From contig JAFLTH010000018.1 of assembly GCA_022510525.1 (NCBI GenBank), positions 1 through 44,017 of the forward strand: a stretch of 44,017 bases of DNA, in the 5' to 3' direction. Both the position numbers and the translations under genes were made by a program. The notes under the pieces are model-generated. The model worked only from the letters and a program-made list of their open reading frames with translations, was not told the DNA's origin and did not search any database. This stretch comes from Lachnospiraceae bacterium. Lineage in GTDB: Bacteria; Bacillota; Clostridia; Lachnospirales; Lachnospiraceae. Of this stretch, positions 22,749-27,687 are shown one piece after another (position 1 is the stretch's first letter; each line of letters begins with the position of its first letter).

Positions 22749-24518
22749 TTATCCTAATTTTGTGCCAATATTACTTCTTGACAATTCCACCAGCCTTTTA
22801 TATGCACCATCCTGTTTCATTAACTCGGTATGACTGCCTTGCTCGCATATTTTCCCACTTTCTATAACGTATATCATATCTGCATTTTCAATAGTTGACA
22901 GCCTATGTGCTACTACAAGTGTAGTACGTCCTCCCATAAGTGCCTCAATTCCTTTTTGAACAAGCTGTTCACTCTCCGAATCTAAAGCAGAGGTTGCCTC
23001 ATCCAGAAGAAGTATCGGCGCATTTTTTATAAATGCACGGGCTATTGCGATTCGCTGGCGCTGTCCTCCGGACAGACTTTCCCCACGCTCTCCCACCAGC
23101 GTGTCATATCCACTCGGAAATTCCATAATGAATTCATGCGCATAGGCACGCTTTGCAGCCTCAATTATTTCATCATCAGTCGCTCCCGGTCTTCCATATC
23201 TTATATTTTCTTTTATGCTTGTTGTAAAAAGATAAGCATCTTGCGGAACATATGCAATATTACCACGTAATTCATCCAAAGTGTAGTCTGATAGTGGTTT
23301 CCCCAATATTATGATATTACCACTGTTAAGTTGATAAAAACCCAATAAAAGCTTGACTATCGTACTCTTGCCTCCACCGCTCTCTCCTACAAGTGCAGCA
23401 GTCTTTCCATTATTCACTGTAATATTAATACCGTTTATTACTTTTTGTATATCATCATATGAAAATACAGCGTCACTTATAGTAATGTCAGTATCTTCTA
23501 TGGGAAAAGAGCCGCCTGCATTAATGTTTTTAATCCGTTGATCCCTCGGCTGTATTGGCTGATCTAAAATCTCGTATACTCTGTCTGCCAGGACAAATGA
23601 GTCTATCAAACTTCCCCATGCGCTGCCAATACGGCTTAAGAAATACGATACCGCACCCTGTAAGCTGAGAATTGCTATCACCGTACCAAAATCAATCAAA
23701 CCCGCAAAAGACATAAATACACCAATGATCAGGATAACAATATTGCACAGGTAGCCAAATACCCATTCAACTGCCGATACGTCAGACATCCTGCGAAATC
23801 TCTTCACTGTATGTTCGGCTGCTTCCTCATTAAAACCGGAATAACGTTCTATCATAGCCCGTGTTCCCGGAAACATTTTGATAACGTTAATCCCTGCCAA
23901 TATATCTGTAAGACTCATTGTGCATTTAGTAAGAAGTTTCTGTATCCTGACCGCCATACCACGAAGAGGTTTGGAAAGAACCATATTTATTCTCACTGAT
24001 AAAATGCTTAATGCAAGTACCATAAGCCCTATACGCGCATCCATCAATAAAATGATTATAATTGATGAAACACCGATTATCACAGGCCCTATGATCACTT
24101 GATGCCTGTTTGCAAGGGAGGACTTTATATCCTCCACATTGAAACATAGTTTTTGTATGGAATCTGCCGAGTGATTCTTTTCAAAATATGACATCGGCAT
24201 ATTGAACAAATGTGTCATCACCCTTAGGCGAAGTCTCGCCATAATCTGACGGACATGATACATATATGTATAAATGATAAAACATCTGACCATGTCTGCG
24301 GCCAAAACAACTGCTGCCAGCCAAAGCGCAGTTTTAAATAAATTAATATCGGAAGCCGTCACTGCATTAATGATATTTTTATAAAATATTGCATTCATTG
24401 CACTTACAAATACATCAGTAGCCGGAATCAGTATCAGGCAGAGCCAATATACACCGGTTCCTTCAAACAGCGATAGATATTTTTTAAATTTATTAATTGT
24501 TATTTTATCTTTATTCAT
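22749..24518 (-). CDS. ABC exporter half-transporter (second of a pair)
   Basis: The 589-residue protein fuses a six-helix exporter membrane domain (about 25-310) to an ATP-binding domain. Walker A is GESGGGKST (378-386), the signature is LSGGQ (482-486), Walker B runs LLLDEATSALD from 503, and the switch His is in VAHRLST. All are intact. With the neighbour 27 nt upstream it most likely forms a heterodimeric type IV (multidrug/lipid/peptide) exporter. No peptidase domain is present, so it is not a typical bacteriocin exporter. Substrate is unknown. The regulator at 26301-27566 lies in the same run and is the likely controller. Confidence 0.92.
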   Translation of the reverse strand: MNKDKITINKFKKYLSLFEGTGVYWLCLILIPATDVFVSAMNAIFYKNIINAVTASDINLFKTALWLAAVVLAADMVRCFIIYTYMYHVRQIMARLRLRVMTHLFNMPMSYFEKNHSADSIQKLCFNVEDIKSSLANRHQVIIGPVIIGVSSIIIILLMDARIGLMVLALSILSVRINMVLSKPLRGMAVRIQKLLTKCTMSLTDILAGINVIKMFPGTRAMIERYSGFNEEAAEHTVKRFRRMSDVSAVEWVFGYLCNIVILIIGVFMSFAGLIDFGTVIAILSLQGAVSYFLSRIGSAWGSLIDSFVLADRVYEILDQPIQPRDQRIKNINAGGSFPIEDTDITISDAVFSYDDIQKVINGINITVNNGKTAALVGESGGGKSTIVKLLLGFYQLNSGNIIILGKPLSDYTLDELRGNIAYVPQDAYLFTTSIKENIRYGRPGATDDEIIEAAKRAYAHEFIMEFPSGYDTLVGERGESLSGGQRQRIAIARAFIKNAPILLLDEATSALDSESEQLVQKGIEALMGGRTTLVVAHRLSTIENADMIYVIESGKICEQGSHTELMKQDGAYKRLVELSRSNIGTKLG

Positions 24519-24545: not shown

Positions 24546-26288
24546 TTAATATGAATTACCTTCGTACATACAATAAAGCTTTGGATAAACTCTACCCTTT
24601 TCCAGTAATTCTTTATGCGTTCCGATCTCAACTACTCTTCCGTGATCCATAACAACGATATAGTCTGCGTTTTGTATTGTAGACAGTCTGTGTGCGACTA
24701 CAAGAGTTGTGCGTCCTTTTGCCAGAGAGTCAAGTGCCTTTTGTACATCGGATTCTGACTGAACATCAAGTGCCGAGGTTGCCTCATCCAAAAGTAATAT
24801 AGGAGCATTTTTTAAGATTGCACGTGCAATGGAAAGACGCTGTATCTGCCCTCCTGACAATCGTGACCCCCGTTCACCTGCCGGAGTGTCGTACTTTTCA
24901 GGTAGTTCATTTATGAAACCGGATGCATTCGCAGCTTCCGCTGCCATACGAATTTCGTCCTCATCAGCTCCGGTCTTCCCCATAGCAATATTTTCTCCCA
25001 CGGACACCGGAAACAGATATGCATGCTGTGACACATATGAAAAGCGTGAACGTAATGCTTCCAGATTCCAATCGTTAAGTTCAATTCCTTCAATCAAAAT
25101 ACTTCCCTGCCGCGGTCGATAAAAGCCGCATATAAGACGAAGCAACGTGCTTTTTCCACTCCCACTTGCACCAACTATTGCGACAGTCTTACCTTTAGGA
25201 ACTGTAAAGCTTATACCATTAAGCACAGGAGTCCCTTCTTCATAGAAAAACTCTACACCCCTGAATTCTATTGCAGGAGCATCCTCTATACCGCACTCTA
25301 CGCTTCCCGCCTTTTCGACCGGTGTATTTAATATCTCAAATACTCTTTCTCCCGCTGCCAATGCTGTCTTACTGTTAAATAATTTATTGGCCGTATCATT
25401 AATGACATTAACCATCTTGGGTAAAAGAGAAAAAAATGCCACCAGGCTGCCTATTGTCAACCTTCCCTGAATGCAGAACCACCCGCCTATTACAAGGCAG
25501 AATATAGAAGAAAGACTACCTGACAGAATAAAAAATGCACGTCCTTTATACTGGTTTTTGTCATTAGAAACTGACATGTCTGTCATTTTTCGTACATTTT
25601 CACGGTAATCCCCAAGCAGCGTATCCTGAAGGCAATAGCTTGCAACCACCTCCATGCCGCCTATCATGTCTACTGACGAACTTATGACATCTGCGGAATA
25701 CTGCATATATGCTTTGGATCCGAATTTAAATTTGGTTGTAAGCATTGAACCAAAGGGCAGACAAAGTATTGTCGGCACTATGGATATAATAAATAATGGC
25801 GGATTGAGATATAACAAATATGTAAAATAAAAAATAAGCAAGAATGGATTCATAATTACATAAATCAAATCAGCTTGCACAAAACCACTTACTCTGTTTA
25901 CATCGTCTGTCAGTCTTGACAGAATATCTCCCGAACGGTTTTTTTCCATATATTCTGCTGTCATTTTGGTAATATGGATTACCGCATCATCTTTAACTTC
26001 TTTAAGTATCTTAGTTGCCGCCCTCCCTGATGTATACCGTGTAAGCCATGCCGAACCGGCTCCGGTTGTAAGTATACCAACACACACCAAGATAATGAGT
26101 CCTATATCGGTTAATGTTCCTGCCTCAAGTCCATCAACCACACGTTTTATAAGCTCAGAACCGGCAACATCACAGCCGGTACATAACGCCCCTGATAATA
26201 AGGCAAGAAATATGAGTATTTTATGCTTATTAACATACTTTAAAATCTGTATAGTAATTTCTTTATCTGTTTTCATATTTTTGACCAT
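24546..26288 (-). CDS. ABC exporter half-transporter (first of a pair)
   Basis: The 580-residue half-transporter has a membrane domain (about 28-300) and an ATPase domain. Walker A is GASGSGKST (373-381), the signature is LSGGQ (477-481), Walker B is LLLDE (498-502) and the switch His is H532. Both partners of the pair keep canonical catalytic motifs, so neither nucleotide site looks obviously dead. The start ATG at 26288 has GAGG 10 nt before it and is 12 nt after the stop of the HTH-PurM regulator. The three genes thus form one unit on the minus strand. Role: export of an unknown compound, perhaps one sensed by the regulator. Confidence 0.92.
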   Translation of the reverse strand: MVKNMKTDKEITIQILKYVNKHKILIFLALLSGALCTGCDVAGSELIKRVVDGLEAGTLTDIGLIILVCVGILTTGAGSAWLTRYTSGRAATKILKEVKDDAVIHITKMTAEYMEKNRSGDILSRLTDDVNRVSGFVQADLIYVIMNPFLLIFYFTYLLYLNPPLFIISIVPTILCLPFGSMLTTKFKFGSKAYMQYSADVISSSVDMIGGMEVVASYCLQDTLLGDYRENVRKMTDMSVSNDKNQYKGRAFFILSGSLSSIFCLVIGGWFCIQGRLTIGSLVAFFSLLPKMVNVINDTANKLFNSKTALAAGERVFEILNTPVEKAGSVECGIEDAPAIEFRGVEFFYEEGTPVLNGISFTVPKGKTVAIVGASGSGKSTLLRLICGFYRPRQGSILIEGIELNDWNLEALRSRFSYVSQHAYLFPVSVGENIAMGKTGADEDEIRMAAEAANASGFINELPEKYDTPAGERGSRLSGGQIQRLSIARAILKNAPILLLDEATSALDVQSESDVQKALDSLAKGRTTLVVAHRLSTIQNADYIVVMDHGRVVEIGTHKELLEKGRVYPKLYCMYEGNSY

Positions 26289-26300
26289 AATACACGTTCC

Positions 26301-27566
26301 TCATTCCTGCCATAATATTCGGCCCTTGTTCCAAACCTTTTCTCCTTTGTTTCTGTCATCGGTTTCTACCTGTCCGATACGCCAGCACTCCGAAAACTTC
26401 CCTATAATTTTCATTGCTTCTTCCCAATGTTTCTCCGGAACAGCCACTACCATTCCGATTCCCATATTAAAATGAAACGGAAACACATTTTCTCCAATCA
26501 TATCCTGTTCAAAGATGAATCTATACAAAGGCATAACAGGAACAGAAGACAAATCAATATACGCGCACAGTCCTTCGGGTATATCCCGCCAACAATTTAC
26601 GTTTATAAGAGAATTGCTGATCCGAAAAGCTTTGTGCAAATATTCTAACTCTTGTAAAGCTGCTATCTCCCTTGTGTAGACTAGATTTGCTTTCATTAAC
26701 TCGTCCATAAAAGAAGTATTTTCATCAATTTTAGCATGGTAAAGTTCAGGTTTTTTATCAAGCATTAACTTCACAAAGGGGTAGCTTATACCATCTATGC
26801 CCTCCGTCTTTATACCAATCAATATATCTCCTTCTTTAATACTGCTTCCTGTCAGCACTTTATCCTTATCCTGCACACCTACCACCGTAGAGTTCAACCA
26901 ATACTCTGTCGGGTTATAATTAACAGGCTGGGCGGAAATCTCCATTCCGGCAAATGAAACCTTATTTTCTTCGCAGATTCGTTGAAATGATTGTGCCATA
27001 AGATATAACTGTTCATAATCGTAATTTCCACAGATTATCATTGACCTTAAAATAACCGGTTTCATGCCATGATGTAATGTAAAATTAATTGCACGGGCCG
27101 CTACATCCTCACAAATCTCATAATTGTATCCATACTCTTTTGCCAATTTTTCCTTAGATCCCGGAACACAGGTAATACATGAATATACAGGTTCTTTCAT
27201 CTGTGATGTATCTATCCTAAACAGACAGGCATCCGCATAATTTGAGGACAATATAGTATCATCATTAGAATTAAGTTCCATAACTGACGATTTTAAAGCA
27301 TGTAACTTTTTTGTATCAAGCCCCGAATCCTTATATGAAATCCACCTGTTTTTCCATTCATCTTCGTTTAACAACGCATCAACTGTCACATTTAGCAGAC
27401 CGGAAATCTCATATAACATTTCAACCGTAGGCAGACTCTTTCCTAACTCCCATTTTGAAACGGCTTGATAGGAAATATGCAATAAATCAGCAAGTTCCTT
27501 TTGCGTTATGCCTTTTTGCTTTCTAAAAAAGGCGATTCTTTTACCAATATTTTCTTTATCCAACAT
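26301..27566 (-). CDS. XRE helix-turn-helix fused to a degenerate PurM-like (AIR synthase) domain
   Basis: Residues 8-66 are a clear XRE HTH (ITQKELADLLHISYQAVSKWE). From residue 77 the protein follows PurM, phosphoribosylformylglycinamidine cyclo-ligase. YKDSGLD matches PurM YKDAGVD, and SSIKEGDILIGIKTEGI matches the GD-V-LIAL segment. CWRDIPEGL matches the FWENIPRVLP block, and FHFNMGIGMVVAVPEKHWEEA matches the C-terminal FNCGVGM block. Catalytic features are eroded. The GTDGVGTK segment reads CVPGSKEK, GGETAEMPG reads GMEISAQPV, and the Gly-triplet before FWENIP is gone. So it is probably not an enzyme. It is co-directional with, and 12 nt from, an ABC exporter pair. I infer a DNA-binding sensor of a nucleotide or purine-like ligand. 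Confidence 0.85.
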   Translation of the reverse strand: MLDKENIGKRIAFFRKQKGITQKELADLLHISYQAVSKWELGKSLPTVEMLYEISGLLNVTVDALLNEDEWKNRWISYKDSGLDTKKLHALKSSVMELNSNDDTILSSNYADACLFRIDTSQMKEPVYSCITCVPGSKEKLAKEYGYNYEICEDVAARAINFTLHHGMKPVILRSMIICGNYDYEQLYLMAQSFQRICEENKVSFAGMEISAQPVNYNPTEYWLNSTVVGVQDKDKVLTGSSIKEGDILIGIKTEGIDGISYPFVKLMLDKKPELYHAKIDENTSFMDELMKANLVYTREIAALQELEYLHKAFRISNSLINVNCWRDIPEGLCAYIDLSSVPVMPLYRFIFEQDMIGENVFPFHFNMGIGMVVAVPEKHWEEAMKIIGKFSECWRIGQVETDDRNKGEKVWNKGRILWQE

Positions 27567-27672
27567 ACTTCATCCGGCCTTTCTTAATCTGTAAGTTCCA
27601 ATCACATTTAAAATATACCATAACATTTTATATAGTATCAATAAACGCTTTAGCGACTCATTTATAAGAAAA

Positions 27673-27687
27673 TCAACTATCAGTTGA
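27673..27687. promoter_or_regulatory. Palindrome in the divergent regulator/aroC region
   Basis: TCAACTATCAGTTGA is a perfect inverted repeat with 6-nt arms and a 3-nt spacer. It sits about 107 nt before the regulator start and 100 nt before aroC. Two smaller inverted repeats are nearby: CGCT/AGCG at 27646-27655 and GTCAC/GTGAC at about 27700-27716. XRE regulators bind such short dyads, so this is a candidate operator. The rest of 27567-27786 is AT-rich without a clear gene. Confidence 0.4.

Follow-up and report, generated by a model that had tools for sequence, protein, structure and literature searches.

A degenerate PurM domain fused to an XRE helix-turn-helix as probable regulator of its own ABC exporter operon in a Lachnospiraceae bacterium

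We analyzed a stretch of 44,017 nucleotides from a Lachnospiraceae bacterium (contig JAFLTH010000018.1 of assembly GCA_022510525.1, positions 1 to 44,017; hereafter the window). Its minus strand encodes at 26301..27566 a protein of 421 residues, in which an XRE-type helix-turn-helix (HTH) is followed by a degenerate PurM (AIR synthase) domain. This HTH-PurM protein is likely an autoregulated, ligand-responsive regulator that binds a palindrome in front of its own gene and controls an operon composed of the regulator and two ABC half-transporters (ABC1 and ABC2), while the PurM fold would be non-enzymatic and serve as effector domain. In this gut bacterium, the copy of a purine enzyme seems to have become a switch that binds DNA. 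The reuse of enzymes as the ligand-sensing part of transcription factors is known but thinly documented, and intermediates are seldom available. Here, three living forms were found: one lacking the HTH, one fused to it with catalytic residues and one fused to it without them. Since all three are extant and both fused forms share a candidate operator, the transition from enzyme to regulator becomes testable step by step. If correct, our interpretation would add the PurM fold to the known sensor folds and would offer a handle on the substrate of the exporter.

Domain architecture and loss of catalytic residues

Residues 8-67 of the protein (27366..27545, minus strand) form the N-terminal DNA-binding domain that is typical of XRE-family transcription regulators. 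Two Pfam models recognized it above their cut-offs: HTH_3 at residues 14-64 (58.4 bits vs. 23) and HTH_19 at residues 8-67 (40.2 vs. 30.2). Residues 77-421 (26301..27338, minus strand) align to E. coli PurM, and the structure prediction that had been proposed as a check returned an intact PurM fold from end to end. The AIR synthase model TIGR00878 gave 136.2 bits, below its curated cut-off of 236.35. Thus Pfam, NCBIfam, predicted fold and residue alignment all confirmed the original prediction of an XRE HTH joined to a degenerate PurM domain. They support a DNA-binding-type protein that is derived from PurM and belongs to a clade without the catalytic residues. This clade A comprises 10 loci (the window, L039-L042, L101, L102 and L004-L006; L003 lies on the same contig as L039 and was not counted), while clade B, of the same architecture, comprises 30 loci, 21 within the genus and nine from other genera. 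With dN/dS values of 0.06-0.24 across six clade A pairs, the protein is under purifying selection.

For a detailed residue comparison, 25 PurM proteins, the 30 clade B and 10 clade A proteins, six bacterial HTH-less relatives and 10 PurM proteins from viral contigs were compared with E. coli PurM (L251) as reference. Asp94, His247, Thr249 and Arg259 have been proposed as PurM active-site residues, and PurM is described as a homodimer (PMC5919458). Ordinary PurM proteins retain the compared residues, bar one Asn at position 247, and the catalytic residues are likewise kept in the HTH-less relatives. In clade B, Asp94, Glu141, His190, Asn192 and His247 are retained in 30 of 30 proteins; 29 proteins also keep Thr249, the Gly triplet and Arg259, the thirtieth (L114) being incomplete there. 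Only Asp65 is replaced, by Glu in all 30. One clade B protein, P0001 (L044:8810-10060), passes the PurM cut-off (272.5 vs. 236.35 bits). In clade A, by contrast, each of the 10 proteins carries replacements of Asp65, Asp94, His190, Asn192, His247, Thr249 and the Gly triplet, so that the loss of catalytic motifs and Gly triplet claimed from the window sequence holds throughout the clade. Asp65 became Cys and His247 Arg in all of them, Asp94 became His, Phe or Tyr, and Thr249 became Ser, Ala or Asp. Of the four proposed active-site residues of an AIR synthase, clade A thus lacks Asp94, His247 and Thr249 throughout, while Arg259 is kept in seven proteins. Asp94 is also the first residue of the superfamily motif DX4GAXP (PMC4506123); this Asp is present in 30/30 clade B proteins and gone in 10/10 of clade A, and the window departs from the motif, reading F-x4-G-M-K-P at residues 162-170. 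Judged from these replacements, the PurM fold of clade A is presumably no longer an enzyme.

A binding function might nevertheless persist. The domain could bind a purine nucleotide or intermediate (ATP, AMP, FGAR/FGAM or AIR) without catalysis, in which case the exporter would pump a nucleotide-like compound, as the original prediction had it. The predicted fold is intact, and clade A retains the equivalents of Lys70 and Glu141 in all 10 proteins (K138 and E209 of the window), of Asp86 in eight and of Arg259 in seven, the window among them. Moreover, a solved PurM relative (9k05) is described in its record with FGAR and AMP bound. However, the replacements described above removed, in every clade A protein, residues to which catalysis and the binding of metal have been ascribed, which argues against a nucleotide ligand, and the conserved gene set of clade A contains no purine gene. 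We therefore regard such a ligand as rather unlikely, and this part of the earlier claim is not supported.

Another aspect that sets clade A apart is the presence of three cysteines, Cys114, Cys130 and Cys133, found in 10/10 clade A proteins compared to 0/30 of clade B, 0/25 PurM proteins and 0/6 HTH-less relatives. Cys133 occupies the position of Asp65 and forms a Cys-x-x-Cys motif with Cys130, while Cys114 may lie on a neighboring strand. One might speculate that these residues allow the domain to respond to a soft metal, to thiol stress or to an electrophile, as their restriction to clade A would suggest. However, the invariance of the cysteines could simply reflect kinship and the exporter shows no tie to metals; this idea seems to us slightly less probable still than a nucleotide ligand.

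Conserved exporter gene pair

Downstream of the regulator gene, after 12 nt, follows ABC1 (24546..26288, minus strand, 580 residues) and after another 27 nt ABC2 (22749..24518, minus strand, 589 residues). In both half-transporters ABC_membrane and ABC_tran are fused, as in ABC exporters of the MsbA/Sav1866/P-gp type, and both carry the Walker B motif DEATSALD; ABC1 has solved relatives. The three genes are probably an operon and would be co-transcribed. Matches in a scan for defense systems were confined to the HTH and ABC parts, apart from one weak restriction-enzyme model, and a defense assignment was rejected.

The exporter pair 12 nt away, pointed out in the original prediction, proved to be part of a conserved gene set headed by the clade A regulator. 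ABC1 lies downstream of the HTH-PurM gene in 10/10 clade A loci, despite unlike flanking genes (aroC, vanY and tgt are neighbors in the window and L039/L003 only), and ABC2 follows ABC1 in all eight clade A contigs that continue. In one locus (L041 of genome G044) the gene of an AraC-type regulator is located between the HTH-PurM gene and ABC1 (L041:10245-11093, plus strand). Genome G044 also holds a clade B gene. Among the 77 genomes of the genus, homologs of ABC1 (E <= 1e-110, best 17 candidates per genome scored) were found in seven, exactly those seven that possess clade A.

The expectation that homologs would always neighbor exporters was borne out for clade A and failed for clade B, where the pair was present in 0/28 loci with a downstream gene on the contig (the contig ends in the other two of the 30). 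Thus the exporter tie belongs to clade A, and exporter control need not be the original job of the family. A search for a functional neighborhood of clade B revealed neighbors that differ among its 30 loci. A gene of one sequence cluster was considered as partner and rejected as too weak, being at most four genes away in 5/30 loci (L050, L052, L053, L055 and L109), some of which are close kin; the one member scanned is RdgB/HAM1-like, below the NCBIfam cut-offs.

Candidate operator and promoter

Upstream of the regulator gene we found the palindrome TCAAC-N5-GTTGA (27673..27687; TCAACTGATAGTTGA on the minus strand), matched once in the window compared to 0.07 matches expected. It is followed by a probable promoter (27612..27641, minus strand) with a -35 box TTGATA, an 18-nt spacer and an extended -10 element TATATT. 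This promoter agrees with the consensus at 10 of 12 positions and is conserved in the clade A alignment. The region holds 30 such matches to the consensus, this one included, compared to 19.2 in shuffles. The palindrome precedes the -35 box without overlapping the core promoter, and its center was computed to lie about 75 bp before the probable start, taken as 7 nt after the -10 element.

The clade A upstream regions have in common the palindrome, followed by a TTATTG element and an extended -10, the exceptions being L006 with one changed arm base and L041 with a variant element. In total, the exact palindrome precedes 9/10 clade A and 12/29 clade B genes (L113 was left out of the upstream analysis), compared to 0.0017 occurrences per letter-shuffled clade B sequence; it is absent from the other 17 clade B regions, some of which carry variants. 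What is new here is a palindrome at nearly fixed promoter distance in both clades, and it suggests autoregulation.

The composite pattern of palindrome and promoter occurs at 22 places in 18 of the 77 genomes, while the reversed control gave two. Fifteen places are upstream of an HTH-PurM gene, three upstream of fusions of an XRE HTH to a SAM-methyltransferase and two inside coding genes. One of the remaining two is the palindrome of a place already counted, read from the other strand; the other lies at a contig edge and fits an HTH-PurM gene. This contig-edge site adjoins a gene judged by eye to be fruK-like, which flanks HTH-PurM in kin. The 19 promoter sites (15, one and three) span 47-49 nt, where 42-50 had been allowed, and the three others 44, 50, and 50. 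Of the 28 HTH-PurM genes of the genus, 12 or 13 escaped detection with the exact composite pattern. A regulon beyond the own promoter was sought with the pattern TCAACYNNNNGTTGAT; the only other match in the own genome, C182:5147, has no composite site and was taken as chance.

The three methyltransferase fusions (L263:1612-2451, plus strand; L281:592-1422, minus strand; L282:588-1436, minus strand) belong to three clade A genomes and carry the same palindrome with the same spacing to TTATTG; Pfam was run on the L263 fusion only. Since the palindrome precedes these genes too, it goes with the type of HTH and not with the PurM domain, which suggests one HTH-operator module that is used with different enzyme domains. 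The same observation could be taken to mean that some other regulator targets the palindrome, while HTH-PurM acts elsewhere. However, 17 of the 18 genomes with a composite site hold an HTH-PurM gene, compared to 27 of 77 overall, and all 19 promoter sites precede the gene of an XRE-enzyme fusion, one of them inferred across the contig edge. A different regulator thus appears improbable, and we consider the palindrome as the candidate operator of HTH-PurM itself.

Distribution and origin of the fusion

Within the genus, 28 HTH-including relatives were detected in 27/77 genomes (E <= 1e-40). Seven of them, among which is the window, show 70-100% identity and the other 21 show 33-35%. Among 397 genomes drawn from the family, with the best four candidates per genome scored, 11 gave a match. 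Besides the own genome, these comprise nine fusions from eight further genera, of which two are incomplete, and a single HTH-less relative. Beyond the family, the class surveys also scored the best four candidates per genome, and rare HTH-PurM fusions may hence be missed. The window protein (391 genomes, E <= 1e-30) gave 27 matches, of which only that of the own genome included the whole HTH in an open frame, while a clade B query (E <= 1e-55) matched 220 genomes, with no whole HTH in an open frame among the matches listed. In a tblastn search for HTH-PurM, no match among 13 plasmid records and the best 20 of 201 phage records spans the entire HTH in an open frame, and the clade B query found no relative among viral contigs.

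Proteins that lack the HTH but show the signature of clade B, EEPGSK replacing DGVGTK, were detected in the genomes G671, G180, G154, G923, G964, and G1086 (L115:9337-10380, minus strand; L146:6640-7728, plus strand; L147:3211-4479, minus strand; L148, L149, and L150). The gene in L147 adjoins genes that by eye resemble purine nucleoside phosphorylase, RpiB, and MtnA. The IMG/VR contigs L233, L235, and L239 (83, 104, and 195 kb) encode such a second-type PurM as well. In G180, G923, G964, and G1086, no protein other than the HTH-less second type passes the PurM cut-off while purD is present, and with the reserve due to draft genomes this type is consequently probably their AIR synthase; G671 holds an ordinary PurM besides it, and G154 has neither PurM nor purD over the cut-off. 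The second type probably represents a separate AIR synthase lineage.

In our phylogenetic tree, from which the incomplete clade B sequences of L113 and L114 were left out, clades A and B together with the HTH-less second type form a group that excludes ordinary PurM and the remaining viral PurM (SH-aLRT 99). In this tree, built with a quick method, the stem of clade A amounts to 5.17 changes per column; according to a warning of the program, branches of such length may be joined falsely. The unconstrained tree did not join A and B. The likelihood of a tree constrained to do so was 9.65 higher (p-AU 0.699), and the junction between HTH and PurM is gapless in the alignment among seven fusion rows. 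A single fusion event for both clades may have occurred and is not rejected by the tree test. One scenario that we find conceivable, though somewhat short of an even chance, starts from this second AIR synthase lineage, which would have gained an XRE HTH and given rise to clade B, possibly a still active purine enzyme that binds DNA. In one branch, clade A, catalysis would then have disappeared and evolution would have been very fast; three cysteines would have arisen in and near the old active site, and the branch would have acquired an ABC exporter operon, with the original operator retained.

Proposed mechanism and comparison with known systems

Taken together, we propose that the HTH-PurM protein recognizes TCAAC-N5-GTTGA ahead of its own promoter, probably as a dimer given the homodimeric state of PurM, and would control transcription of regulator, ABC1 and ABC2. 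The remodeled PurM cleft, as fold and selection suggest, would be the effector-binding domain, where a small molecule, probably the exporter substrate or a sign of it, may alter DNA binding such that the exporter is switched on. With the center of the palindrome about 75 bp ahead of the probable start, cooperative repression and activation are both possible, repression being the more usual sign for regulator-exporter operons. Thus, of the original idea of a regulator that senses a compound and controls its own exporter, the PurM-derived DNA-binding-type protein, the exporter gene set and a conserved palindrome stand, while the nucleotide-like compound does not.

As a genetic arrangement, the system resembles LmrR-LmrCD, a regulator-exporter operon in which a small-molecule-responsive regulator stands beside the two half-transporters of a heterodimeric ABC exporter. 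However, HTH-PurM is a regulator of a different family, and here both half-transporters possess the DEATSALD Walker B motif. Enzyme folds reused as ligand sensors are known from PutA and BirA. With respect to the PurM superfamily, the PDB record 9hjt places human SEPHS1 with other proteins on DNA in the Zincore complex; like HTH-PurM it is a PurM-superfamily protein in transcription, yet it belongs to the selenophosphate synthetase branch. Among the matches listed in a search of the open-access literature, no PurM-based transcription factor was found. Unlike the AIR synthase PurM of E. coli (1cli/9jzw), the window protein has an N-terminal HTH, a TIGR00878 score below the cut-off and lost catalytic residues, while clade B shares its architecture and, in 12/29 cases, its exact palindrome, but keeps the catalytic residues except for Asp65 and has no exporter pair beside it.

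The closest known kind to the HTH-PurM regulator is BzdR, in which an XRE HTH is combined with a shikimate-kinase-like, effector-binding domain that has lost catalysis, binds benzoyl-CoA and controls benzoate genes (Durante-Rodriguez et al., 2013, PMC3602430). Both proteins carry an N-terminal XRE HTH in front of the fold of a metabolic enzyme without its catalytic residues, where the loss of catalysis and the effector role are in our case deduced from sequence and fold. They differ in the enzyme that was recruited, PurM instead of the shikimate kinase family, and in the genes at hand, an ABC exporter pair instead of benzoate genes.
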